From Promethearchaeota archaeon (GTDB lineage Archaea > Asgardarchaeota > Lokiarchaeia > Sigyniarchaeales > SOKP01), in NCBI GenBank assembly GCA_016840085.1, contig JAEOTA010000004.1, positions 79,809 to 143,808 on the forward strand: a stretch of 64,000 nt of DNA. The letters run 5' to 3'. Shown here one piece after another: positions 17,577 to 52,353 of the stretch. A program made the position numbers and the translations under genes. Numbering within the stretch: position 1 is the stretch's first letter; each line of letters opens with the position of its first letter. The notes beneath the pieces were generated by a model. The model was not told the origin of the DNA. It saw nothing but the letters and a program-made list of their open reading frames with translations, and did not search any database.

Positions 17577-18092
17577 CTATTTTTTTAATTTTAACGCTAA
17601 TTTTATAAATAATTTTTCAAGATCAAGTTGATATCCTATAAGAGGGGATAATCTAACTTCTCCCAAATTTTTATTTAATTCTAAATATCCCATTTTTCTT
17701 AATTCATTTAAATCCTCAATAATACCTTTTTTTTTTCTTAATTCTTGAATCTCATGAATTTTACCAACCCCTAAATTCTTCAAACAACAAACTAAGGTAC
17801 AAAATAAGGTTGCAGCTAATCTTGGTTTTCCTTCAAATGGATTTGCTGATATAAAATCCGAAACATCTGAATCAAAGCTAGTAAACCAACGAGAATTCAA
17901 CGGATTAAATCGAATTTGAAGCCCTAATGGTTCAATGTAATTTGATAAATTAGTAATTAGATCTTGGAAATGAATTGATTTATTTTTATCTTTGATATTT
18001 AACGTATTTAAAATTTCTTCTTTTGTTGCTCCCATTTCAAATAAATTTAATTTATTACTTAATAATTGCATTAAAATTGTGATTTCATTCAT
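17577..18092 (-). CDS. ScpB/KITE-like winged-helix protein of the SMC operon
   Basis: A 171-residue protein that fits a tandem winged-helix KITE element. The first half (about 1-85) resembles a winged helix, then RLAATLFCTLVCCLKNLGVGKIHEIQ followed by LNELRKMGYLEL matches the second ScpB winged helix and its recognition region. It ends with strand LSPLIGYQLDLEKL. ScpB-like proteins bind the kleisin in pairs. It lies 17 bases after the kleisin-like gene. The homology is weak by eye, so the call leans on the operon context. Confidence 0.6.
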   Translation of the reverse strand: MNEITILMQLLSNKLNLFEMGATKEEILNTLNIKDKNKSIHFQDLITNLSNYIEPLGLQIRFNPLNSRWFTSFDSDVSDFISANPFEGKPRLAATLFCTLVCCLKNLGVGKIHEIQELRKKKGIIEDLNELRKMGYLELNKNLGEVRLSPLIGYQLDLEKLFIKLALKLKK

Positions 18093-18109
18093 TATTATTT
18101 ATCAACTCT

Positions 18110-18760
18110 TCACAAGTATAAAAAATTACTTTCTTTCTGATATTTTATTTTTCCTAATTGGAGTAAATGTAAAATATAAACAAATTCTTCATAAATTATT
18201 ATTTGATCATGTTCATCTTCAAAGATGTCATCAAAAGAGCAAGGAAGTTTATACTTGATAGCATTGAAAAAGTCCATCATTTTTTCAGTATATTTATGTG
18301 TTGGGACTTCTAGTAAAAAGTCTTCTTTTACTTTCAGTCTTTCTATTGCTTCAATACTAAATGAGTGTCTTTTAGCAGAACTTAGTTTATTTTTAGAACA
18401 TTCAAGGAAATTGATAGAAAGAGGATTAATATTAAATGGTTGTCTCCAACAATCTTTAAACAAATCATTAATTTCTTTATCTTTTGGTTTTGATTTTAAA
18501 AATTCTAAGAAGACATTCTCATTATCTAAGTAATTCATTAAAATTTTAAATTCTTCAAATTTTTGCTTTAGAAGTGTAAAAGCACTTTGGTATGTTTTCG
18601 AATACTTTTCAATATTATATACATTTATTGAGTCCTTTAGATTTTCAAAAATAGGAACCAGTTCTATATCTAATAAAGAAAGATCTCCAGAAAGAACCTT
18701 AGTTCTGATATCCTCAATTCTTTTATTTAGTTCCTTAGAAAAATCTTTTTTCTCAATCAT
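18110..18760 (-). CDS. ScpA-like kleisin of the SMC operon
   Basis: A 216-residue protein. The N-terminal part (LDIELVPIFENLKDSIN...) resembles the ScpA start that binds the SMC neck. The C-terminal part, CSFDDIFEDEHDQ followed by EEFVYILHLLQLGKI, matches the kleisin winged helix that caps the SMC head (in ScpA: F-dlf, then V-FLALLEL-K-G). The middle is a linker. It starts 10 bases after the SMC stop. Identification as a kleisin is an inference from these two ends and gene order. Confidence 0.65.
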   Translation of the reverse strand: MIEKKDFSKELNKRIEDIRTKVLSGDLSLLDIELVPIFENLKDSINVYNIEKYSKTYQSAFTLLKQKFEEFKILMNYLDNENVFLEFLKSKPKDKEINDLFKDCWRQPFNINPLSINFLECSKNKLSSAKRHSFSIEAIERLKVKEDFLLEVPTHKYTEKMMDFFNAIKYKLPCSFDDIFEDEHDQIIIYEEFVYILHLLQLGKIKYQKESNFLYL

Positions 18761-18770
18761 TTCAATTTTC

Positions 18771-21700
18771 TTATTTCTTTTTTATAATTTTCGGCTTAAA
18801 AACTGAAGAAACTTCATTTTTCCCAACCCTAGCGATTCCGATTACTTTTTCAGCAAGAAGAAATAATGAGGTGGAAGATTTCGGTAAAAACATGAATAAT
18901 TGTATTGGGTTTTGTTCCAATGTTGCTTTTATTAATTGATACGCCACTTCAGAATTTTTTTCATCTAAAAACATCCCCGCTTCATCAAACATACAAAGTG
19001 GAGATGGTTTAATCTCTTGAAGAGATAAGATTAAGCAAATTGAAATTAAAGAAACTTGCCCTCCGCTTAATGCAGTAAAAGATTTTAGCTGCTCTTTTGA
19101 GGTAGCCGCTCTTATATTAACACCCAAGTCTTCAAAATTTCCTGAAAGTTCAAGAGAACAATAGGAATTAATCTGAGAATCCTCAAACTTTTGATTTACC
19201 TTAGTCTGGAGACTTTCAAGAACTACACTAAATTTATCATTATAAGTATTTTCTAATTTATTTTCTGCTTTAATAGCTGCTTTAATATCTTTTTCTAAAT
19301 CTTTTTGATTTTTTGAGATTTCTTTTAATGAAGCTATAATTTGATCTCTTTCAACTACAATTGAATCATCAACATCGAAATAATTAAGTAATTTTTTATC
19401 GATTTGTAAGATATCTTTCTCAATTTCCTTGATTGAGCGAAGTTTTATAATTTGCTCAGAAATTAAAGGACCAATTTCAGAATTAATTCTTTTTAAATCA
19501 TTCTTTTTAGATTCAAGATCTTGATTATACGAATTTAACTTAACATTCTCTTGTTCTAATTTTAATATAGTTTGCATGTTATTTTTCTCGATTTCGCTTT
19601 TTTCTTTTTGGAGTTGCATCCTTGTGGCTCTTAATTCTGAAATGGTTTGTTCTATTATATTAATTTCTTCTTCAATATCTTCTAATTGCCTGTAGGTATT
19701 AAAAGCAGATTTATCTGCTTTCCTGAAATCTTCTTTTTTCTTTTCATATTCCGATTTTAATATATTACATTTATTCTTATGCTCGGTTAATTTATCTTGT
19801 ACTTCTTTTAAAATATCTAAGTTTTCTTTAAGTTTTAGATCCCACTTTTTCTTTTCTTCATTTAAAAAAGATAATTCATTAGGTATTTCTTTAACTCTAT
19901 CATTCCATTTAAAAAATTTAGGATCAGTTTGGGATTGTAAATTTTTAATATTAAAATCTAATTCTTGAATCTCTTTTTTTAAGGATGATTTATCTTTTTC
20001 AAAATTATGCATTTTTTCATATAATTGATTCTTTTTTGTTGTTATTCTCTGTTTTTGATTGAAATTATATAAAAGGTCGTTGAATGCTTCTTTTTTTTTA
20101 AAAATTTCCTTTTGGTTATTGTCTAAGCTTGATTGTTTAACTTTTAATTCTGAGATCTCATCATTTAAACTCTTAACCTCTGATTCTAAAATGCTTGACT
20201 GTTCTTTTTGGGTTGCTGCACTTAATAATCCTTTCAATCTCTTAATATAAGGTGTTTCATAGACATACTTATAAGACACTATTTGTTCACCTTTTAAAGT
20301 AACACATTTCCCTCGGAAATTAAGCGAATTATAAAGATTTGTTCCAGAACGATAATCTCTTACAACAATACAATTTTTAACTTTAGAGTAAATAACTTTT
20401 TTAATATCTACATCATTATTTAAAATTTTTATTAATTCTGCTATGTACCCCACAACCCCCTCCGCAGAAATTTTCATTAAGGGTTGAATATTTATATTCT
20501 TTGGTAGATAGATGTTACAATATGCGCCATATTTCTCTTTTAATCTCTTTAATAAACTTAAAGTATCCCAATCCTTAGCAATGAAACTATAAAGTAATTT
20601 TTCACCTAAAACTGATTCTATAGCATAACTTAACTCATCATCATATTTAAGATAATCAATAATAGGACCTTTAACTCTTAACTCTCTTTTTTTTATCTCT
20701 TCCTTTAAAATAGAAATGGTTGATGGAAGAATAACTCGACGTTCTCTAAGCGAAACTTGTAAAATTTTTAATTTGTTTAGTCTTTTAGATTTTTCAATTT
20801 CTAATTTCTTTATTTCAGAATCAATTTCATAGATTTTTAATGAAGCTTCTCTTAATTGTTTATCAAGTTGTTCTAAAAGGTTTTTAGTAGGATTTTCCAA
20901 AAACCATTTATTTTTTTCTAATTTATGCTCTATATCCTTAAAACTCTGAAATAACTGATTGATTTCATCATTTATCGTTTTAATTGACTTTTCATTTTCT
21001 TTAACTTTACTGATTTTTTGAGTTTTTTCGGAAATCACTTGATTATATTCATCTAAAAAGAGGTTATTTTGTTTGATTTTCTTTACTAGTTGATTTTGCT
21101 CTTTTAGTAAATCATCGATTTGAATTTCAAGGTGTTTGATTTCATTCATTATTATTTTAATTTCATTATCTAAGCTCTCTTTCTGCTTTTCAAAGTTGAT
21201 TACTAATTTTTCTATTTTATTGATATTTTGAGAATATGCATCTAATTCTTGTTTTACTAATATTTTCTCTTTTTGCCATTTCTTTATTTTTGCTATTAGG
21301 TCTTTTTGTTTATATTTTAGTTCACCAAATTTTTCTGAAAGTTTATTAATGTTTTGTTCCTCAGCATTAATTTCATTTACTAACTCTACTATTTTTTTAT
21401 CATGCTTTCCTTTTTTCTTTTTAATCTCTTCAATAACAAGCGTGAGATTTTTAACTATTTCTTCAATTCTGATAATTTCTTTTTGCAATTTATCTCTATT
21501 TGCCCATAAAAGTTCATCATGAAACCTGTTTCTAATTACCAATAATTCATTTTTCTTCTTTAGTCGTTCTAATTTAGGTGTCAGAAATTCTAAACTAATA
21601 TTTAATGTATTTTTCTTACTCATTAATGATTTAAGGTCATTATTCAAATTACTAACATTTGATTTTTGTTGTAATATCTCATTTCTCAAGTTCTTCAGCC

Positions 21701-22247
21701 CAATTCCTTCTTCAAGGAAAGCACATAACTCTGTTGGCTTTAAATTTTTAATAGCATCAATTTTTCCTTGACTTACAAAAGCAAATTGATTATCAGGATT
21801 AATATTTAAAGTTCTAATCAATTTTTGAATTTCATATACTTGGATTTTTTTAAATTCTTTATCTTCCTTTAGTTGTATTTTAAAATATGGAGATTGCCCT
21901 CTGATAACATATCTCCTTATTTTTATTATTTCTTCTTCATGTTGTATATGAATTTCAACCATAGCATGATTTTGACCATTCCTAATGAAATCTGACCATT
22001 TAGTATACCTTTCATCTCTTTCATTGCTTCCTAAAGCAAATTTAATCGCTTGAAAGATCGATGTTTTTCCACTCCAATTAGGACCAACAATTATTACAAA
22101 TTTGGCATCTCCAAAATCCACTTCATCTTTTTGAAAGGATAGAAAATTTTCTAAAATGACTTTGTCGATGAAAATCTTCCGATTTTCTGTAAAATTCAAT
22201 TCTTTTTTTCTTGGATTATATCTTGATTGAGAAGCCAAAATTTCCAC
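18771..22247 (-). CDS. smc: SMC ATPase with atypical head
   Basis: A 1158-residue SMC protein. The N-terminal head has Walker A GPNWSGKT (55-62) in place of the usual GPNGSGKS/T, and a Q-loop FVSQGKIDAIK. Two long coiled coils flank a hinge (about 515-670; VKGPIIDYLKYDDELSYAIESV). The C-terminal head has signature LSGGQ (from about 1060), Walker B PLCMFDE (Asp near 1088) and a D-loop LDEKN. The switch His that follows in canonical SMC is absent; the strand reads FMFLPK, reminiscent of the PK motif of SMC5. Start is GTG 22247. It should load on or loop DNA with its operon partners. Confidence 0.9.
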   Translation of the reverse strand: MEILASQSRYNPRKKELNFTENRKIFIDKVILENFLSFQKDEVDFGDAKFVIIVGPNWSGKTSIFQAIKFALGSNERDERYTKWSDFIRNGQNHAMVEIHIQHEEEIIKIRRYVIRGQSPYFKIQLKEDKEFKKIQVYEIQKLIRTLNINPDNQFAFVSQGKIDAIKNLKPTELCAFLEEGIGLKNLRNEILQQKSNVSNLNNDLKSLMSKKNTLNISLEFLTPKLERLKKKNELLVIRNRFHDELLWANRDKLQKEIIRIEEIVKNLTLVIEEIKKKKGKHDKKIVELVNEINAEEQNINKLSEKFGELKYKQKDLIAKIKKWQKEKILVKQELDAYSQNINKIEKLVINFEKQKESLDNEIKIIMNEIKHLEIQIDDLLKEQNQLVKKIKQNNLFLDEYNQVISEKTQKISKVKENEKSIKTINDEINQLFQSFKDIEHKLEKNKWFLENPTKNLLEQLDKQLREASLKIYEIDSEIKKLEIEKSKRLNKLKILQVSLRERRVILPSTISILKEEIKKRELRVKGPIIDYLKYDDELSYAIESVLGEKLLYSFIAKDWDTLSLLKRLKEKYGAYCNIYLPKNINIQPLMKISAEGVVGYIAELIKILNNDVDIKKVIYSKVKNCIVVRDYRSGTNLYNSLNFRGKCVTLKGEQIVSYKYVYETPYIKRLKGLLSAATQKEQSSILESEVKSLNDEISELKVKQSSLDNNQKEIFKKKEAFNDLLYNFNQKQRITTKKNQLYEKMHNFEKDKSSLKKEIQELDFNIKNLQSQTDPKFFKWNDRVKEIPNELSFLNEEKKKWDLKLKENLDILKEVQDKLTEHKNKCNILKSEYEKKKEDFRKADKSAFNTYRQLEDIEEEINIIEQTISELRATRMQLQKEKSEIEKNNMQTILKLEQENVKLNSYNQDLESKKNDLKRINSEIGPLISEQIIKLRSIKEIEKDILQIDKKLLNYFDVDDSIVVERDQIIASLKEISKNQKDLEKDIKAAIKAENKLENTYNDKFSVVLESLQTKVNQKFEDSQINSYCSLELSGNFEDLGVNIRAATSKEQLKSFTALSGGQVSLISICLILSLQEIKPSPLCMFDEAGMFLDEKNSEVAYQLIKATLEQNPIQLFMFLPKSSTSLFLLAEKVIGIARVGKNEVSSVFKPKIIKKK

Positions 22248-22260
22248 ATCTTGTTATATT

Positions 22261-23484
22261 TTATTTACCAAAGGCTTGTTTTATACGATCGACTCTTTTC
22301 TTCGCTTTTTCTAAATTAATTTGTGTCATATTTGGAGAATCATTTAAGATGAAGGGATATTTTGCTAATAACTTCCTATCATTTTCTTCTAATGGGTCAT
22401 TTTTATTCAATTTATCAATAATAATAATAAGTTCATTATAATTTTTTGAAGCAGCATTTTCATATAATTGGTTTAACATAAATTCTGAAATACGCATTTC
22501 TCGGATATCATCAACAAAATTATCAATATTTTTTATCTGATCGACACTTTCTTTTACTTTTTTTGGATAAACATTTTCACTTTCAACCCCTTCCTCCCTG
22601 ATATCTTTAACATTTGTAATTTCTAAAGACTTAGTAGATATGGAGGGTAAATATTCACCTGATTTAATTAAATTAAGTAAACTGTCTGTAATTTCATTGC
22701 TTGTATTATTTAACTCATAATTTAAAAAATGCCTTAAAATTCCAACTTTTAACAATTGCTTAATATCTTTTACTTCCCAATTCTCTGTATTATTTACAAT
22801 AGCACTAATATCAAATACGACCTTTGGGTTATTTTCTAAGAAATCTCGAAGAACTGTCTCTCGTTCAATTTTATTTAACATATTGATTTTAATAAAAAGA
22901 TCAAATGTATTATATAAATTATTTAAAAGTCCTTTAATTTCTTGAAGATTATAATTAATCCACACTAAAATTATGCCTAATTCATTACAATTAAATGAAA
23001 TCTTATTAGTGTGTTGTGCTCTTATAAAAATATCTAATAAATTCTTCTCTTTGAAATTTTGATTATGAAACAGCTTCTGGTCAATTAAAAATAATCGTTT
23101 TTCATTAATTGTGTCTGCTTTTTCTTCTAAATTATCTCTTAATAGCCTAGAAATTGAATTTAAACTTTTGAAAAAATCATCAGGAGTTTTTATTACATCT
23201 TTTTTATTAAATTCAATGAAGTCTATATAATAATTGATTGAAATTAGTCTTAAAAAATCTAAAATGTCTGTTCCAGGATTTACATTAATCAAAATAGCGC
23301 CTTTTGGCTCTATATAACCCTTCAAAGTTATATCTTGATTTTTTGTCAATATTAGCTTAATATAATTTATAATGTCATTATATTTATCTCGATAGAATAT
23401 GTCTTCCTTATTAATATTGATTTCGGAAGGAGAAACCGCTCGAAAATACTTTGAAAATTCTGGAACATTATTTAAACCACTCAT
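22261..23484 (-). CDS. Degenerate AAA+-like protein heading the SMC operon
   Basis: A 407-residue protein that reads as an AAA+ module without its ATPase residues. Walker A appears as VNPGTDIL (68-75), where PGT is kept but Gly-Lys-Thr has become Asp-Ile-Leu. Walker B appears as LFLIDQ (131-136) with Glu to Gln. A sensor-1-like strand VWINYN (174-179) and a helical lid (IERETVLRDFLENN, about 206-219) follow. The C-terminal 110 residues are helical. It ends 13 bases before smc, and the start ATG has an AGAGGT site. It is probably a structural or DNA-loading partner of the SMC complex. This is inferred; ATP binding seems unlikely. Confidence 0.6.
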   Translation of the reverse strand: MSGLNNVPEFSKYFRAVSPSEININKEDIFYRDKYNDIINYIKLILTKNQDITLKGYIEPKGAILINVNPGTDILDFLRLISINYYIDFIEFNKKDVIKTPDDFFKSLNSISRLLRDNLEEKADTINEKRLFLIDQKLFHNQNFKEKNLLDIFIRAQHTNKISFNCNELGIILVWINYNLQEIKGLLNNLYNTFDLFIKINMLNKIERETVLRDFLENNPKVVFDISAIVNNTENWEVKDIKQLLKVGILRHFLNYELNNTSNEITDSLLNLIKSGEYLPSISTKSLEITNVKDIREEGVESENVYPKKVKESVDQIKNIDNFVDDIREMRISEFMLNQLYENAASKNYNELIIIIDKLNKNDPLEENDRKLLAKYPFILNDSPNMTQINLEKAKKRVDRIKQAFGK

Positions 23485-43175: not shown

Positions 43176-44216
43176 TCAATATCGCTTCATCTTTTTAGAA
43201 TATTGTTGAAAAGGTGTTCTAGGTTCTAGACTAAACCAGTCTGTATTCTTATCTAAATGAGAGAATGTTCTCAATAAATCAAAGGTTAACCATCGAGATG
43301 CTTGAGGATATAAAGAACATTCCCACATGCCATATTCACCTTGTTCTCCTTTGACAAAATCAACCAATTCTGAAATCCTTTCATCGTCTAAAGAAGCACC
43401 AATTTTCCAACAGAGACTTAAAATGTGAGCTGCATCCATTTTAGGATAATATGTTCTCCATCCTCTTGATTCCTCTAATCCTATAAGACGAGAAATTACG
43501 AAACCCAGTAAATTTTTTTGCTTCGTTTCACATCCTAAGATCAAATCAAGTGCTCTTTTAGCCGCACTACTTCTTCTTCTCTTTGGATGATAAGCCAAAC
43601 AATTTAGCACCGCAATTGTAGATGATCTGCAGCCCCAACGAGAGTGTGCAATTCTACGATAACCGGCAACTCTTCCGTAAACACCTGAAGCAGTCCCTGT
43701 AGCCCATGCTCCATCATCAAGTCGTTGATCCATTAACCAATCATAAGCTTTTTCAGCTCGTTTATTGGTGGAATATCCACAAGCTGCTAATCCTTCTAAT
43801 GGGGTTGCAACCTGCAAAGGTATCATATCATATCCATGAATTTCTTCAGATGGTCCTTGTTTAATAGTTGGAATTGGCCATGTATAATCTTCTTCTTGTT
43901 TCGAAAACATATAATCAGCAGCTTTTCTGACAAATTTATGATCTTTATCAAATCCAAGATACCCTAATCTCACTAATGCTTGAGAAGTTGCCTGAAGGTT
44001 TCCCGTATTTGATATTTTACCTGAAAGATCTACACTACTCCAAGAGCCATCATGTAGCTGAGTTTTAATGAGCGATTCGACAATTGGGTCTTTATCACGT
44101 AAGATGAGTAATTCTCGTACTTCTTCATCATCCTCCGAGCGGTTTAATAACTTCTTTAATACAAGTAATCTTAAGTTTGGTGAAGGATCAGTTAATAATA
44201 ATGGTATCCAAGTCAT
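43176..44216 (-). CDS. Alpha/alpha-toroid (prenyltransferase/squalene-cyclase-like) repeat protein
   Basis: A 346-residue helical repeat protein. Units of QLHDGSWSS, LMDQRLDDGAWAT, KQEEDYTWP and GEQGEYGMWECS resemble the QW-like repeats of terpene cyclases and prenyltransferase beta subunits. No DxDD cyclase motif or zinc triad is obvious, so it may be a binding scaffold rather than an enzyme. Its ATG overlaps the UvrA-like stop (ATGA), so the two are translationally coupled, and it probably works with that protein. Confidence 0.65.
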   Translation of the reverse strand: MTWIPLLLTDPSPNLRLLVLKKLLNRSEDDEEVRELLILRDKDPIVESLIKTQLHDGSWSSVDLSGKISNTGNLQATSQALVRLGYLGFDKDHKFVRKAADYMFSKQEEDYTWPIPTIKQGPSEEIHGYDMIPLQVATPLEGLAACGYSTNKRAEKAYDWLMDQRLDDGAWATGTASGVYGRVAGYRRIAHSRWGCRSSTIAVLNCLAYHPKRRRSSAAKRALDLILGCETKQKNLLGFVISRLIGLEESRGWRTYYPKMDAAHILSLCWKIGASLDDERISELVDFVKGEQGEYGMWECSLYPQASRWLTFDLLRTFSHLDKNTDWFSLEPRTPFQQYSKKMKRY

Positions 44217-47200
44217 GCAATCTCCTCCAAGACTTCTTTTATGTAAGGTGCTGTTGGCGTTTTCCCCGCTGCAATCATTTCAGGCGTGCCAGTTGCAATT
44301 AATCTTCCACCATCATCACCAGCACCTGGACCAAGTTCTATTAACCAATCACATGCTGCCAACAAGTGAGGGTGATGCTCAATAACTACTACAGTATGGC
44401 TATTTTCAACTAATTTATGTAATACATTAATAAGAAGAGAAACATCTTCCATATGTTGTCCTACGGTTGGCTCATCCAAAATATACATCGATTTCTTTAT
44501 ACTCTTTTTACTCAGTTCCTTAGCAACTTTGAGTCTCTGTACTTCTCCGCCAGATAATGTGTATGCAGGTTGGTTTAAAACTAAATATCCTAAACCGACA
44601 TCCTTTACGAACTTCAATTTTCTTTCAATAGATTCTTCTTCCTTGAACAACTCATAAATCTCATCAATAGTCTTATCATTTAATTCAGGAAGTGATACAC
44701 CTTTAACTTTGACTCTCCAAGCATCCATGGAGTAGCCGGTTCCGTTACACACTTCGCACACATCGTAGATGTTTGGTAAGAACCCCATATCCGTCTTTAT
44801 TGTACCATCTCCTTTGCAGACAGTACATTTCTTATTAAGAACTTTTTCACTTAAACCTAATGATATTGCATCTTCACTTTCAGCAAATATCTTGAAGAAA
44901 TTTTTTCTTAAACCAAGGTAATTCATTGGGCTTGTAACACTGGCTCTGGTTTGGTCAATGATTATGGTTTGAGATAATTCACCTTCGATTTTATTATATT
45001 TTCCTGGTTTGATGGGCTCTCTTGCCATTGATGTAGTATGTTTTTTTGGAGATAGTACCCTTCCAATCGTATCTATCAATAGCGTAGATTTACCCGAGCC
45101 TGATACACCGCATATTCCTACTAGAAAACCGTGGGGGATTTCTATTGTTTCTCCTTTCAGATTGTTTTCTTTCGCACCATATATTTTTAACCATTTCTTA
45201 GGAATTCTCTCTTGCTTAATGAAATTAAATTTTTTTTTACCATTCAACCAATTTGCTGTTATTGTGGTTTTCTTTTTAAAATCTATCGGTGAGCCTGTCG
45301 CAACTATTTTACCACCCTCAATTCCAGCTTTTGGACCTAAATCAACAATGTAATCTGCTGATTTAATAAGAAACATATCATGTTCCACCATTAGGATAGT
45401 ATTACCCACATCTCGTAATTCCTCAAGTGCTTCCAATAATGCTTCAAGTTCTGAAGGGTGTAATCCTCTCGAAGGTTCATCCAAAATAATTGTAAGAGAA
45501 GTAAGACCACTACCCAAAACTCCTGCTAATCTGACCCGCTGAGCTTCGCCTGCTGAAAGAGATGCTGCTATTCTATTCAAATGTACATATCCTAACCCTG
45601 TTTTGATTAAGAACTTTAAACGATCTAGGACAGTTTTATGACTATTTTGAATTATAGCGGAAATCTCATGATTTACAGAAATGTCTTCTATGACTTTTAA
45701 CAAATCTACAAAAGGAATTTCACTCAATTGATGCATATTATAACCATTTAAAATGAAAGCTAGAAATTCCGGTCGAAGTTTAGCACCTTTACAACTGTCA
45801 CATGTTTTTATATCAGTATATGTGCCACCAATGTCCCATTCACTTACCCATCCATGGTAAAATCCAATAAATTTCCCTATTCTGGTATATTTTTCTCCTT
45901 TACGGTTCTCATAATGTATTTCCAATGGCTCATCACATCCGTATAAAAATACATCTTGAGCTTCCTTAGATATTTTATTCCAAGGTGTATTAGCTGGATC
46001 AAAATTATAACGTCTTGCAAGTGCTTGAAGAACATAGTATCCCCCATTGAATGGTTTACATAAATATCCCTGTGGAAAAAATCCGGGGGAATACATTGCA
46101 CCCTTACACAATGGTTTTTCCGGATGAATAATTAACTTATCTGGTTTTGGGACATTAATAGTTCCTATACCATGACACTTTCGACAGGCTGCTTGATATG
46201 ATGAAGGATCAAAGTGAACAGGTTTTGGTATTGGTAACCTAATATTACATTTTTCACAAATCCACTCAGTCTTTTTTATCATTGAAGCACCACATTCTGG
46301 ACATATACACTTACCTAGATATGCCAATAAATTCGCAATATGATGGGTAATTTCTGTGGCCTTTCCAATTGTGTTTCTTATGTTGAAATTGCGTGAATGC
46401 ATAGCTTTAGTTGATATAACATGAGAAGTAACACCAAGCCCAGATATTTCGTCTACCATTACTTCAGGACCTTCACGGATCCCCTGACGCTCATACATGG
46501 ATAAAGTTTCAAAGAAGCGACGTTTTGCTTCAGCTTCGATTATATCGCTTACTAAACTAGACTTTCCACTTCCAGAAACTCCTGTGACCACGTTAATTGA
46601 ATTTTTCGGGAATTCGACATCAATTCCTTTTAAATTGTGAATGTGAGCATTTTTGATGGTGATTTTTTTTGATATTTTATTTTTTCCTTTTTTTGAGCTT
46701 GGTATTATTGATTCATCCAATTTCAAGGCTTTGGCTGTTTGTGAATCTTCACACTCCAATAATCCGTCAACTGGACCGGAATAAATTACGTGACCTCCTT
46801 CATCACCTGCTCCAGGACCAAGATCAATAACCCAATCTGCTGTTTTGATAACATCCAAATTATGTTCCACAATAATAACCGTCGCCCTTGCTCTAACTAA
46901 TCTATCCAAGATTTTTAATAAACCCTTCAAATCCTGAGGATGAAGTCCCGTGCTTGGTTCATCTAATATAATAATCTGGCTTTTTAGGGACGATTTTCCT
47001 AAATATTTTGATAATTTGAGACGTTGAGCTTCTCCTCCAGATAGAGAGGGTGAAGGTTGCCCAAGAGATAAGTATCCTAAACCTATATCTTTAAGAGTTC
47101 TTATCATTTCTTTTAAATTTTCTAAATCATTTAATGACAAACGGTTTTCTTTTTCCATTAAGTCAGCTATTTCAGATATAGATAGATCATAGATTTCAGC

Positions 47201-49102
47201 GATAGAATAAGATTTATCATCAAAATCAACTTTAGCGCCAATAATTTCTTCCTTAAATCTTGCTTGTTTGCAGTCTGGACAAGGAACCCAAGATGATGGC
47301 AAGTGACGCATTTTTATTTCCAGAGCACCCATTCCCTTACAAGTTGGGCAAGCACCTTCAGGTCTATTAAATGAAAAATGCGACATACTTAGCCCCGTTT
47401 CTTTCGCATATAGTTTTCTTAAGATTTCCGATATTTTTGTATAGGTAGCAGGATTTGAACGGGGATTTTTTCCAATAGGACTTTGATCAACGATTACTGA
47501 TTTTAAAGAGGGTCCGATAATTTTCTTACAACCAATAGGTTTTTTCTTTTTTAGTGAGGCATGAAGAACTTCTTCGATCAAAGTGCTTTTTCCTGACCCT
47601 GAAACTCCCGTTATCACAGTTAATCGATTTAAAGGAATTTGAACATTTATCTTTTTTAAATTGTGCTTATTTGCTCCTTGGATTTTTAAGAAGAGATTAG
47701 TTTTTGATCTTAATTTAGGCGTGATAACTTTTTTTCTTAAACTAAAAAATTCTCCTGTAGGAGTATTGGATTCCCATAATTCTGAAGGTAAACCTTTAAA
47801 AACAATTGATCCACCACTAGATCCCGCTCCAGGTCCTAAATCAATCGCATAATCCGCAGCTGCAGCTGCAATTCTATCATGTTCTACAAAAATTACAGGT
47901 CCAGGTAATTTGTGAAAAATTGGTAAGAATTTAGTAACATTTGTAACATGTTGACCGATCGTTGGTTCATCGAGTACATGCAAAACATCTTCCAATTGGT
48001 TAATTAAAGTGAGTGCAATCCGTACTCTTTGTGATTCCCCTCGGGATAAAGTAGGAGATGATCGATCTAGCGTTAAATAATCGAGTCCTACTTCTTTTAA
48101 CGCGGTTAATCGTTTTGTTATTTCAGAAAGCAAACGATTCGTAGAAGCTGATAATTTGATATTTTCGAAAAGCTTTAGAGCAGCTTTTACTGAATATCTT
48201 AAGAATTCGGTTATAAGTAGCCCTGAAAAATACACAGAAGAAGCCAATGGATGTAACCCTGTATTATTGCAGTGCTTACAACCCTTTCTTTTACAGAATG
48301 GGCAGCCCATATGAAAATGTTTAGGTTCAACCTGCTTTAACCATGTACCGCATTCCGCGCAAGATGAGATTCCTGTAATCTTCTCGATTCTTTTACCAAT
48401 CTTTATTTGAAGTATATTCGAGCCTAATGCTTGACTTTTTATAGTAATATCTCGTATATATTCAATTGACGTTGAACTATCCACTTGAGCTATTTTAATT
48501 AATAATTTATGGTGATCATGCGGATTGAGTTCAATACCATCCCATTTTTTACCATCTATGTATAAATTCTCTAAAAGAAATTGTTTTGATAAAAGTTTGA
48601 GCAAGGTTTTATGGCTTCCAAACACATTATTTAGCAGTTGACAATAAACAACAACAGAATTTTTAATAGCCAAATTATGAAGATAATCAACTATTTCATC
48701 TTGGGTTAAGATAACTACATTAGCACCACAATTTGGACATTTTCTTATTCCAAATCGTGCATAAAGCAGTCTAAGTAAAGGATGTAACCCTGATGCTGTA
48801 GCTAAAGTAGAATTTGGATTTCTATTTAGCAAATTCTGTCCAACAGCAACCGCGGGACCTAATCCTGTTATTGAAGCTACTTTTGCAGGAGCTAGCTTAT
48901 AAGAAGATCTCTGACTTGACCATTTTCGACTATAACCGAATAATTCAACTAATCGACGATTTGATTCATGATATAATGTATCGAAAACAAGTGACGATTT
49001 CCCTGAACCAGAAATTCCAGTGACAACAGTTAAACCATCTCTGAAGGTGACATCGATGTTTTTTAAGTTATTTTCTCTCGCTCCTTTAATCTCTATTTCC
49101 AT
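44213..49102 (-). CDS. uvrA: Tandem UvrA-like protein with four ABC units
   Basis: At 1629 residues it is almost two UvrAs in one. Walker A motifs (G[I/V]SGSGKS[S/T]) lie near 29, 500, 844 and 1334; ABC signatures (LSRGESQR, LSGGEAQR, LSAGEAQR, LSGGEVQR) near 352, 690, 1182 and 1516; CxxC zinc modules are in each half (CPNCG, CPTCKG, CPECG, CTVCKG). The first half has the long insertion between the zinc pairs where UvrB binds; the second half lacks it. Chlamydial UvrA is, as I recall, a similar fusion. It may form the normal UvrA dimer within one chain. No uvrB or uvrC is here. Confidence 0.88.
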   Translation of the reverse strand: MEIEIKGARENNLKNIDVTFRDGLTVVTGISGSGKSSLVFDTLYHESNRRLVELFGYSRKWSSQRSSYKLAPAKVASITGLGPAVAVGQNLLNRNPNSTLATASGLHPLLRLLYARFGIRKCPNCGANVVILTQDEIVDYLHNLAIKNSVVVYCQLLNNVFGSHKTLLKLLSKQFLLENLYIDGKKWDGIELNPHDHHKLLIKIAQVDSSTSIEYIRDITIKSQALGSNILQIKIGKRIEKITGISSCAECGTWLKQVEPKHFHMGCPFCKRKGCKHCNNTGLHPLASSVYFSGLLITEFLRYSVKAALKLFENIKLSASTNRLLSEITKRLTALKEVGLDYLTLDRSSPTLSRGESQRVRIALTLINQLEDVLHVLDEPTIGQHVTNVTKFLPIFHKLPGPVIFVEHDRIAAAAADYAIDLGPGAGSSGGSIVFKGLPSELWESNTPTGEFFSLRKKVITPKLRSKTNLFLKIQGANKHNLKKINVQIPLNRLTVITGVSGSGKSTLIEEVLHASLKKKKPIGCKKIIGPSLKSVIVDQSPIGKNPRSNPATYTKISEILRKLYAKETGLSMSHFSFNRPEGACPTCKGMGALEIKMRHLPSSWVPCPDCKQARFKEEIIGAKVDFDDKSYSIAEIYDLSISEIADLMEKENRLSLNDLENLKEMIRTLKDIGLGYLSLGQPSPSLSGGEAQRLKLSKYLGKSSLKSQIIILDEPSTGLHPQDLKGLLKILDRLVRARATVIIVEHNLDVIKTADWVIDLGPGAGDEGGHVIYSGPVDGLLECEDSQTAKALKLDESIIPSSKKGKNKISKKITIKNAHIHNLKGIDVEFPKNSINVVTGVSGSGKSSLVSDIIEAEAKRRFFETLSMYERQGIREGPEVMVDEISGLGVTSHVISTKAMHSRNFNIRNTIGKATEITHHIANLLAYLGKCICPECGASMIKKTEWICEKCNIRLPIPKPVHFDPSSYQAACRKCHGIGTINVPKPDKLIIHPEKPLCKGAMYSPGFFPQGYLCKPFNGGYYVLQALARRYNFDPANTPWNKISKEAQDVFLYGCDEPLEIHYENRKGEKYTRIGKFIGFYHGWVSEWDIGGTYTDIKTCDSCKGAKLRPEFLAFILNGYNMHQLSEIPFVDLLKVIEDISVNHEISAIIQNSHKTVLDRLKFLIKTGLGYVHLNRIAASLSAGEAQRVRLAGVLGSGLTSLTIILDEPSRGLHPSELEALLEALEELRDVGNTILMVEHDMFLIKSADYIVDLGPKAGIEGGKIVATGSPIDFKKKTTITANWLNGKKKFNFIKQERIPKKWLKIYGAKENNLKGETIEIPHGFLVGICGVSGSGKSTLLIDTIGRVLSPKKHTTSMAREPIKPGKYNKIEGELSQTIIIDQTRASVTSPMNYLGLRKNFFKIFAESEDAISLGLSEKVLNKKCTVCKGDGTIKTDMGFLPNIYDVCEVCNGTGYSMDAWRVKVKGVSLPELNDKTIDEIYELFKEEESIERKLKFVKDVGLGYLVLNQPAYTLSGGEVQRLKVAKELSKKSIKKSMYILDEPTVGQHMEDVSLLINVLHKLVENSHTVVVIEHHPHLLAACDWLIELGPGAGDDGGRLIATGTPEMIAAGKTPTAPYIKEVLEEIA

Positions 49103-49159
49103 TTATTGTCTTGATAATTTTTATGGATACTAACTTAAATATTTTTTAAAATACATAAA

Positions 49160-51661
49160 TTAATTTAAATAAAACCCCGTATTGGAATTTTGATTGTTTT
49201 TGATTTCTTCAGGAGTTCCACTCGCAATTACTTCTCCTCCCTTTGGTCCTCCTTCAGGACCTAATTCTATAAGATAATCACAATAAAACAAGATATCGGG
49301 GTCGTGTTCTATGATTATCACACTATTTCCATCTTGTACTAGTTGTTCAAGTAATTCCATCAGTTTTACAGCATCAAAAAATGATAAACCAACTGTAGGT
49401 TCATCTAGAATATACAAGGAATTTCCCTTACGTGCCTTTCCTAATTCCTTTGCCAATTTTACACGCTGGGCTTCACCTCCACTCAAAGTTGGAGCAGGTT
49501 GTCCAAGCGTCATATATCCCATACCGATCTCATCAAGGATTTTTAATACTATTGATATATTTGGGTGGGATTTAAATAGTTCTAATGCTTCACTTACTGT
49601 CATATCTAAAACCTCTGAAATTGTATGATCTTTATATTTAACCTCTAAGATTTCTGGTTTATACCTTAGACCTTTACATTCTTTACAAAGGATAGTAAAA
49701 CTACTGAGAAATGAAATTTGCAAATCTTGTTCACCAGTACCTTTACAATTAGGACACCTACCATTATCGGAATTATAAGAAAAATGTCCCGCCTTATAGT
49801 TTCTCTTTTTAGCTTCAGGTGTTTTGGCAAATAAATTTCTAATTTTATCCCAAATACCAATGAAAGAGCATGGCGTCGATGTTTTTACTCTAGATATTGG
49901 TTTTTGATTAACTACAATAACCTCATCCACATATTCCCATCCTTCTATAATCCCAGAATATTCTAAAAGGTCTTCGCCATTTTCTTCTTCTTCCTCATTG
50001 GTATTGTCCTTCTTTTTTTGTTCTTTTTTTGTTCCTCTTTTAAAGTGAGGTTTTAATAAAGGAACCAATGTATCTAATATGAGAGAACTTTTACCGGAGC
50101 CTGATACACCTGCGATCCCTATCATTACTCCTAAGGGTATTTTTACAGTAATATCTTTTAAATTATTAGTATTAGCATTTCTTAAGATTAAGTAATTGGT
50201 TGTTTTATCGATGATTCGTCGTGTTTCAGTTTCTTTATTTGGTAATTTAATATTCCCCGCTAGAAATTGACCCGTATATGAATTTTTTACTTTTACAATC
50301 CCTTCAAGTGAACCTTGATACACTATTTCTCCACCGTTCACACCTGCGCCTGGACCAATATCAATCACCTCCTCAGCAATATTTATAAAATGCTTATCAT
50401 GCTCAACAATAATGACAGTATTTCCTAAATCTTTCAATTTTTTTAATATATTAATTAATGATTCCTTTTCTTGTTCATGTAAACTCATACTGGGTTCATC
50501 TAATATATAAATAAGGGAATCAAGACCACTATCTAAATGTATCATGAGCGATAATCGCTGAAGTTCCCCACCACTCAATGTAGGTAAGGAACGATGTAAA
50601 TGTAGATAGGAAAGACCAACATTTATCATACTTTTTAAACTTTCTAATAGACTATCTAACATTGATTTACCTTGTGGACTTTTCACATGCTTTTCATCTA
50701 TGTTTTCTAAAAATTCTTTCAATTCATCAATAGTCATCATTGCTAGTTCTCCTATGTGTTTATCTCCAATTTTTATCTCTCTTGCTTGATCATTTATACG
50801 ATACCCATCACATTCGTCACATTTTTGCTTTACCATGAAATTTTTATGGATCTTATTTTGTCTATAAGTACTTTTACTTTCGATTAAAGCCCTTTTAATA
50901 TGTGGAATAATTCCCTCAAATACACGTTCCAACTCTCCACTAAAGGTTTTTGATTCCCATTGAAATTTAAGCTTTCTTCCACTTCCATATAAAAAAACTC
51001 GCTTAACATCCTCAGGTAAATCCTTATAGGATATGTTAATATCAAAATTATAAAATCTCGGTAATTGTTCGACAAATCGAATTTGATCTGCAAATACTCC
51101 TGATCCTGCTCTCGTAATTTGTATAAGATTTCTATTATAATCTTGCACTATCATTTCTTCTGTAATATTTAAAGTATAACCCCTCCCTTTACAATTCAAA
51201 CACATGCCAGAAGGTTCATTAAATGAAAAATGTTTAATTTGCTTTCTTTCTATAATCATTCCACATAAATCACACTCTAAATTATCATTAACAGGTTCTT
51301 TACAAATCGGACAGATTAAGACTCCTTCAGTAGCATATAGCATTCTCAGTAGTCCATAAATCCCTGTTTTAGTTCCAACAGTAGAACGTGGATTAAATAC
51401 ACGTGTGGTTCTCTGTTCCACTGCAACTGTTGGACTTAATCCTTCAATCATATCAAATGGTTTCTCATCCTCAAATTTTGGGGGAAACCCAATTGATTGA
51501 AGATATCTGTTCATCCCTTCATCGAATATAATATCAAATGCCAAACTAGATTTACCCGAACCTGAGACCCCAGTAATAAGTATTATTTTTCCTTTAGGTA
51601 TATTTACGTTGATATTCTTAAGATTATGGATCCTTGCGCCTATAACTTTAATTTCATCCAT
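49160..51661 (-). CDS. uvrA: UvrA-like ABC protein (UvrA2/DrrC type)
   Basis: From ATG 51661 (MDEIKVIGARIHNLK) it has 833 residues; the longer frame to 51715 overlaps the methyltransferase and is not needed. There are two ABC units: GVSGSGKSS near 34 and 522, LSGGE signatures near 364 and 727, and zinc CxxC groups (CPICKEP, CDLC, CPNCKG). The UvrB-binding insertion is absent, as in UvrA2 and drug-resistance DrrC proteins. A charged EEEEENGED linker (about 560-575) is unusual. It probably confers resistance to or detection of DNA-binding agents rather than core repair. Confidence 0.88.
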   Translation of the reverse strand: MDEIKVIGARIHNLKNINVNIPKGKIILITGVSGSGKSSLAFDIIFDEGMNRYLQSIGFPPKFEDEKPFDMIEGLSPTVAVEQRTTRVFNPRSTVGTKTGIYGLLRMLYATEGVLICPICKEPVNDNLECDLCGMIIERKQIKHFSFNEPSGMCLNCKGRGYTLNITEEMIVQDYNRNLIQITRAGSGVFADQIRFVEQLPRFYNFDINISYKDLPEDVKRVFLYGSGRKLKFQWESKTFSGELERVFEGIIPHIKRALIESKSTYRQNKIHKNFMVKQKCDECDGYRINDQAREIKIGDKHIGELAMMTIDELKEFLENIDEKHVKSPQGKSMLDSLLESLKSMINVGLSYLHLHRSLPTLSGGELQRLSLMIHLDSGLDSLIYILDEPSMSLHEQEKESLINILKKLKDLGNTVIIVEHDKHFINIAEEVIDIGPGAGVNGGEIVYQGSLEGIVKVKNSYTGQFLAGNIKLPNKETETRRIIDKTTNYLILRNANTNNLKDITVKIPLGVMIGIAGVSGSGKSSLILDTLVPLLKPHFKRGTKKEQKKKDNTNEEEEENGEDLLEYSGIIEGWEYVDEVIVVNQKPISRVKTSTPCSFIGIWDKIRNLFAKTPEAKKRNYKAGHFSYNSDNGRCPNCKGTGEQDLQISFLSSFTILCKECKGLRYKPEILEVKYKDHTISEVLDMTVSEALELFKSHPNISIVLKILDEIGMGYMTLGQPAPTLSGGEAQRVKLAKELGKARKGNSLYILDEPTVGLSFFDAVKLMELLEQLVQDGNSVIIIEHDPDILFYCDYLIELGPEGGPKGGEVIASGTPEEIKNNQNSNTGFYLN

Positions 51662-51681
51662 TTTTTCATACTTCTCTTCTA

Positions 51682-52353
51682 CTATTTGATTTTTTGCAAT
51701 ATGTAAGTTACACAATCAAATCCCGCAGGATCTTTCTTGACCATTTCTATTTCCATTACATGACGTTTAATTTCTTCAATATCATCGAGATTATCATACT
51801 TTTTACGTAAAATATTAATCTTTTCCTCCAAGGGGGAATAATATTGCATCCACCAGCATTCTCTTTCCCAAGGTATTTGCTTGATGAGCTTGAAGCCAAA
51901 TTTAGGGAAATGCTTGAGCTTCCTATTTGCCCAGTTATTCGCTTCACCTGTAACCATAAAACCATTCAATTTCAGGACCCTATTACATTCTGTTAAGGCT
52001 CTTGTGAGATCAAGTAAATGTATAACTCCTTCCTCCCAAATGATATCAAAACTCCCATCCTCAAATTTTGTATCATATACTGAACGATTATACACTTTGA
52101 CCCTGTCTGAAAGACCTTCTTGCTTAATCTTAAGATTTAGTTTATCCAAGGCTCCTTGATCAATATCAATTCCAGTTACCTCACCATTACTTAACTTCGC
52201 TAACTCTAAAGTAGGCATTCCCGTACCGCATCCAATATCGAGGATACGAGGTTTGTTTCTCTCTGGAATACTTTCAAATGCTTTTCTCGTATATTTGAGA
52301 AAAACTGAGCGAAATCCTTCAGCATCAAGTTCCCTTAATATTTCTTCAGACAT
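51682..52353 (-). CDS. SAM-dependent methyltransferase (UvrA cluster)
   Basis: A 223-residue class I methyltransferase: RILDIGCGTGMPTLELAKLS, VTGIDIDQGALDKLN, FDIIWEEGVIHLLDL and CNRVLKLNGFMV. The C-terminal 80 residues include a Trp-rich WERECWWMQYYSPLE stretch and likely bind substrate. It lies 20 bases before the chosen UvrA2 start and is co-directional with it. A role in modifying a toxic compound would suit the neighbours; this is inference. Confidence 0.82.
   Translation of the reverse strand: MSEEILRELDAEGFRSVFLKYTRKAFESIPERNKPRILDIGCGTGMPTLELAKLSNGEVTGIDIDQGALDKLNLKIKQEGLSDRVKVYNRSVYDTKFEDGSFDIIWEEGVIHLLDLTRALTECNRVLKLNGFMVTGEANNWANRKLKHFPKFGFKLIKQIPWERECWWMQYYSPLEEKINILRKKYDNLDDIEEIKRHVMEIEMVKKDPAGFDCVTYILQKIK

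Follow-up and report, generated by a model that had tools for sequence, protein, structure and literature searches.

Four open reading frames lie on the minus strand at positions 17577–23484 of the window, which is the whole 64,000-nucleotide stretch of DNA that was analysed, and they encode, in the order of transcription, an AAA-like protein without the residues of an ATPase (pseudo-AAA), an SMC protein, a kleisin, and a KITE (ScpB-like winged-helix) protein, separated by intergenic gaps of 13, 10, and 17 bases. All features of the window described below are on this strand. A preliminary description, made from the sequence alone, had proposed a four-gene operon with these gaps and had called all of the gene identities weak except that of the SMC; the open reading frames were found exactly as described, and all four identities held when examined by profiles, HHalign, structural models, and Pfam matches of orthologues. 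The window is part of contig C19 in a genome of 4.68 Mb; an Asgard affiliation, as assumed in the preliminary description, is consistent with our observations. A canonical SMC and ScpB are encoded in the same genome on a separate contig (C85), and thus the four-gene operon represents a second, separate SMC system.

The SMC encoded by the second gene (18771–22247, 1158 aa, GTG start) exceeded the Pfam cut-offs for SMC_N and SMC_hinge, and its alignment indicated that the Walker A motif (GPNWSGKT), the signature (ALSGGQ), the Walker B motif (FDEAGMFLD), and the hinge were all intact, fulfilling the general motif criteria for an SMC of the SMC-kleisin-KITE type. The products of the third gene (kleisin, 18110–18760, 216 aa) and the fourth gene (KITE, 17577–18092, 171 aa) were identified mainly by HHalign, in which gene 3 matched the kleisins of three-gene TACK SMC operons at 94.9% over 212 columns and gene 4 matched the KITE proteins of these operons at 96.4% over 148 columns, the off-diagonal controls being 0.9% or lower in both cases. 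This comparison shows that the two proteins are homologous to the partners in archaeal SMC5/6-related operons. The matches to the canonical partners were weak (26% for gene 3 against ScpA and 7% for gene 4 against ScpB), and a single KITE orthologue, in genome G042, exceeded the Pfam SMC_ScpB cut-off (28.4 against 27.4 bits). Both proteins also matched solved structures only weakly; the kleisin profile found the C-terminal domains of ScpA in PDB with E values of 0.05–0.16. In the kleisin model (pLDDT 78), the N-terminus was helical and the C-terminus formed a winged helix, the latter at a pLDDT of about 90, and the best structural neighbours of the model, albeit weak, included the C-terminal domains of kleisins (ScpA and Scc1) and chains of Smc5/6 structures, with no match at an E value below 0.001 in the structural search.

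The first gene (22261–23484, 407 aa, ATG start) encodes the subunit for which a structure prediction had been set beforehand as the test of an AAA fold. The AlphaFold2 model (mean pLDDT 79) comprised an AAA module (residues 14–275, 22660–23445) joined by a disordered linker to a helical domain at the C-terminus (residues 332–404, 22273–22491), and the top Foldseek matches were p97, FtsH, and Msp1 (E 3e-8; TM 0.63 to p97 D2 by target length), so that the AAA fold is shown in the predicted model and the claim held. Profile and HHalign analyses support this. A Pfam scan gave nothing significant for the pseudo-AAA or the kleisin of the window, and the orthologues of the pseudo-AAA matched Pfam AAA (E 7e-11) and AAA_lid_3. 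A profile of 23 orthologues matched Cdc48/p97 in PDB (E 5e-25), and a profile built from the window's own family alone (f1; the Asgard groups in our survey are designated by codes such as f1, f8, and f22) gave no PDB match, indicating that the AAA identity rests on intermediate sequences and the model. This result, retained as a negative control, is the main reservation about the assignment, and it is answered by HHalign with Loki-type sequences only, which gave 93% against p97 and 97% against the AAA of lineage f22, with unrelated controls at 0.4% or lower. The HHalign comparison between f1 and Thor excluded L137, a misplaced f1 sequence.

Alignment to p97 D1 and D2 placed the Walker A position at VNPGTDILD (residues 68–76, 23257–23283; GPPGSGKTL in p97) and the Walker B position at LFLIDQKLF (residues 131–139, 23068–23094; IIFIDEIDS in p97). 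The alignment supported the preliminary motif reading, according to which Lys-Thr of Walker A is replaced by Ile-Leu and Glu of Walker B by Gln. Among the 61 homologues in the set, the Walker A Lys was present in none of the 59 alignable there and was mostly replaced by Ile or Phe within a new G-T-D-(I/F) motif, the Asp of which was found in 50. The position of the catalytic Glu was occupied by Gln in 36 of 60 homologues and by Glu in only 4, and the Arg fingers were mostly lost; the lid Trp was almost invariant (60 of 61). We call the subunit a pseudo-AAA because of these absences, and its operation as an ATP-driven ring is unlikely, since the P-loop, catalytic, and Arg-finger residues have been lost. 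The C-terminal domain was the best conserved part of the protein, with a mean pairwise identity of 0.36 compared with 0.17 for the AAA module, and its helices were modelled at a pLDDT of about 90.

The preliminary description had named the absence of the gene order from related genomes as a refuting condition, next to a structure prediction without an AAA fold; neither condition was fulfilled, and its interpretation was supported. Of the 64 loci that carry this SMC, 61 (in 58 genomes) have the pseudo-AAA gene immediately upstream of the SMC gene in the same orientation, the other three loci being truncated at contig ends, and the kleisin and KITE genes followed the SMC gene in nearly all loci. 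Homologues of the pseudo-AAA were found in 50 of 58 relatives, and the kleisin profile matched 103 of the 228 genomes of the phylum. The operon was near-universal within the window's own family, and several families, from three or more of the phylum's higher groups, shared the gene order. A contig survey using the SMC alignment relied on over-general peptide patterns and yielded two TACK loci only. Because the order is kept in 58 genomes and the Walker A Lys is lost in every alignable homologue, the observed pattern is more than chance. The data show that a kleisin, a KITE, and a pseudo-AAA are co-encoded and co-inherited with an SMC that has kept its ATPase motifs and hinge.

A sister operon with the order AAA, SMC (850 aa), kleisin, and KITE was found in lineage f22 (G133–G136), where it is split across two contigs in G133, and in G047; since G047 belongs to another family and has 9% contamination, its copy could possibly be a product of contamination or transfer. 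The AAA of these operons keeps a P-loop (G-x-(P/S)-GTGKT), the Asp of Walker B, TNRP at sensor 1, and, in the finger position, an Arg, and has FIDN where FIDE is expected, i.e. Asn in place of the catalytic Glu. Full-length HHalign of the f22 AAA against the window family gave 99.3% over 297 columns, and the C-terminal domains alone gave 88.6%, with controls at 2.4% or lower. An AAA partner is not needed everywhere, because no AAA gene was found within reach of the TACK SMC operons, and in f25 and f26, likewise without an adjacent AAA, the genes that follow those of the SMC, kleisin, and KITE encode the large subunit of DNA primase and a ThiF-like protein. The adjoining primase large subunit may be a hint at genome maintenance.

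To place the SMC, a tree of the heads of 40 SMCs was inferred under the LG+C20 mixture model. A canonical clade (support 100/100) excluded the window SMC, and an SMC5/6-related clade (100/99) contained eukaryotic Smc5 and Smc6, the short SMCs of TACK archaea, and f22. The window SMC fell into a third clade (99/97) outside both, and an earlier LG+G4 tree was in agreement. Joining the window clade with f22 was rejected (AU p 0.005). The tree did not include SMC3 and SMC4, the C-terminal head of human Smc5 was truncated, and the eukaryotic heads were taken from PDB alignments, for which an Smc6 query served only to retrieve the PDB letters. Because the long branches of a Rad50 outgroup broke up the tree, it was kept unrooted or drawn with the canonical SMCs as outgroup. 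The third clade is apparently new, since Yoshinaga, Nakayama and Inagaki (PMC9389158) present only two sub-clades, canonical and SMC5/6-related; a 2021 paper by the same authors reportedly defines an archaeal SMC5/6-related set, and it is possible that some sequences of the third clade are within that set.

With moderate confidence, we favour a homodimeric SMC-kleisin-KITE complex that carries a non-hydrolysing AAA scaffold, which could be a loader or regulator resembling Nse5/6, although its assembly is inferred from gene order and there is no direct evidence for the regulator role. An SMC dimer, the kleisin, and the KITE would form a DNA-entrapping, ATP-driven ring as in other SMC-kleisin-KITE complexes, and the pseudo-AAA would dock on this ring mainly via its conserved C-terminal helical domain. 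The AAA module would be a rigid platform that does not hydrolyse ATP and that governs the loading of DNA or the engagement of the heads, by analogy to yeast Nse5/6, which keeps the Smc5/6 heads unproductive and the ATPase inhibited until DNA is bound (PMC8327961). Nse5/6 are not known to be AAA proteins, and the suggested parallel concerns role and not family. It may be possible that an ATP-binding switch decayed into a scaffold, because the f22 subunit still has a P-loop for ATP binding, with Asn in the place of the catalytic Glu. The putative complex would probably serve chromosome maintenance alongside the canonical SMC set and not as its replacement. The roles suggested in the preliminary description, namely a loader, a ring clamp, or a DNA anchor, could not be told apart by our analysis, apart from an ATP-driven ring being improbable.

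Several alternatives were considered. The pseudo-AAA might be a DNA-binding anchor or clamp that, instead of controlling the ATPase, holds the ring at chosen sites, its AAA module gripping DNA as in ORC or AAA proteins of the clamp-loader type. The classical AAA fold and the conserved G-T-D loop replacing GKT, which suggests that a non-nucleotide role has been kept, are consistent with this; however, the AAA module is less well conserved than the C-terminal domain, Pfam detected no known DNA-binding domain, and the Arg fingers, which work across AAA ring interfaces, have been lost, and hence we consider it unlikely. It is also improbable that the pseudo-AAA is an adaptor for a separate MoxR ATPase and its VWA partner, which would remodel the SMC complex from outside by ATP hydrolysis. 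A MoxR and VWA pair divergently adjoins the operon in almost all f8 loci, immediately precedes it in the same orientation in G057, making six genes in a row, and VWA homologues also adjoin another SMC-ScpB set in seven genomes; in the window's lineage, however, the pair is not beside the operon, a VWA homologue being on another contig, and there is no evidence of binding. A Wadjet-like defence against plasmids or phages, with the pseudo-AAA as a sensor, is very unlikely: Wadjet uses SMC-kleisin-KITE sets and the window SMC weakly matched the JetC and LmuB models of PADLOC, but the operon has no JetD-like nuclease gene, PADLOC gave no Wadjet or Lamassu partner for the other three genes, and the near-universal, broadly vertical occurrence within families is unlike that of a patchy defence locus. 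A strict Smc5/6-type complex, belonging directly to the SMC5/6-related clade, is improbable, because, although the kleisin and KITE are homologous to the partners of TACK SMCs grouping with Smc5/6 and the f22 operons with the same four genes lie inside that clade, the window SMC is in its own well-supported clade and its union with f22 was rejected.

A bolder reading is that the AAA-SMC-kleisin-KITE set is ancestral to both the window clade and the SMC5/6-related lineage, because it is present on both sides of the split, in the window type and in the f22 type. The AAA would have disappeared from TACK archaea and from the line leading to eukaryotic Smc5/6, in which its place was taken by other regulators, and in Loki- and Thor-like lineages it would have degenerated into a dead scaffold. 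The balance leans against this reading at present; if it is true, the Asgard complex would be an extant outgroup of Smc5/6 with a fourth subunit that Smc5/6 has lost. The pseudo-AAA SMC operon occurs in many of the Asgard archaea, the closest archaeal relatives of eukaryotes, and its relatives are informative about the origin of Smc5/6. Furthermore, the lineages range from f22, whose AAA has a P-loop, to the Loki- and Thor-like ones, in which it is fully dead, and this series makes the change from motor to scaffold testable.

A comparison with known systems delineates the operon further. No AAA subunit of any SMC complex, and no such four-gene complex, was found in the literature searched, outside of which were bioRxiv and most subscription journals, and, as far as this search shows, an SMC complex with a pseudo-AAA has not been described before. 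The archaea-specific SMC-related proteins (ASRP; coalescin, Sph) are likewise archaeal members of the SMC superfamily, but the window SMC has a hinge and is 1158 aa long, compared with 593 for the ASRP model, and its score of 88 bits against the NCBIfam ASRP model (cut-off 300) excluded membership. Wadjet (JetABCD) and MukBEF share the SMC-kleisin-KITE principle, whereas the window operon has a different four-gene set and its SMC is not MukB-like; Wadjet membership was rejected, as the JetD nuclease and a MukB-like JetC were absent in the PADLOC search. Canonical Smc-ScpAB (prokaryotic condensin) also co-encodes an SMC with a hinge, a kleisin, and a KITE, but the window operon differs in its extra pseudo-AAA, in the clade of its SMC, and possibly in its kleisin and KITE, which match ScpA and ScpB weakly, with one KITE orthologue above the Pfam ScpB cut-off. 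Membership was rejected, since the SMC is outside the canonical clade and scored 201 bits against TIGR02168 (cut-off 567). The pseudo-AAA resembles Cdc48/p97-type AAA ATPases in its AAA fold, lid, and profile match, and is distinguished from them by the missing Walker A Lys, the mostly missing catalytic Glu and Arg fingers, the added C-terminal helical domain, and its tie to an SMC operon. The archaeal SMC5/6-related SMCs are alike in having homologous kleisin and KITE partners and, in f22, the same four-gene order, whereas the window SMC is outside their clade and, in the TACK members, the SMC is shorter and an AAA gene is missing; eukaryotic Smc5/6 offers a possible parallel in its accessory regulator Nse5/6. 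SMC complexes are classed by their non-SMC subunits, a kleisin with KITE or HAWK, and a conserved AAA-derived subunit would represent a new kind of partner.

In the SMC proteins of the window's own family (f1), the P-loop had Trp where its second Gly is normally found (GPNWSGKT; about 22060-22090 in the window SMC gene, near the N-terminus), and a Trp at this position was absent from the other lineages in the alignment. The ABC signature was SEGQ, not SGGQ/E, in the SMCs of two genomes of another family, f4 (L073:4989-8486 and L078:4044-7541). A partial second copy of the kleisin gene and that of KITE, a ScpB-like winged-helix protein, was observed at a contig end in the genome G000 (L136, G000:C23, 4062 bases), with similar neighbours. 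The contamination of this genome was 7.6%, and the copy is likely to represent another strain or contamination.

With respect to gene neighbourhoods, the focal-type operon was adjoined by a pair of genes for a MoxR ATPase and a VWA protein in the lineage f8 and the genome G057 (L069:56-3484, L070:1478-4790, and L120-L134). VWA homologues were also present in several Loki-type genomes (G022, G024, G032, G035, G042, G045, and G050), beside a different SMC and ScpB set instead of the focal-type operon. Elsewhere in the window, a methyltransferase gene precedes two large adjacent genes of the UvrA-like ABC ATPase type (44213-51715; 1629 and 851 aa), which PADLOC marked as mad3/mad8-like, probably because of ABC ATPase domains in common.

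In f25/f26 (L248, L250, L251, L253, and L254), the SMC-kleisin-KITE genes continue into those for the DNA primase large subunit and a ThiF/E1-like protein. This gene run also includes a small coiled-coil gene, at least in L250 and L254, and the small gene of L254 is similar to the N-terminus of the AAA protein of the sister lineage f22. In TACK archaea, the operon consists of three genes, SMC, kleisin, and KITE (L117, L118, and L143-L165), and its SMC, with a length of 570-640 aa, groups with Smc5/6.
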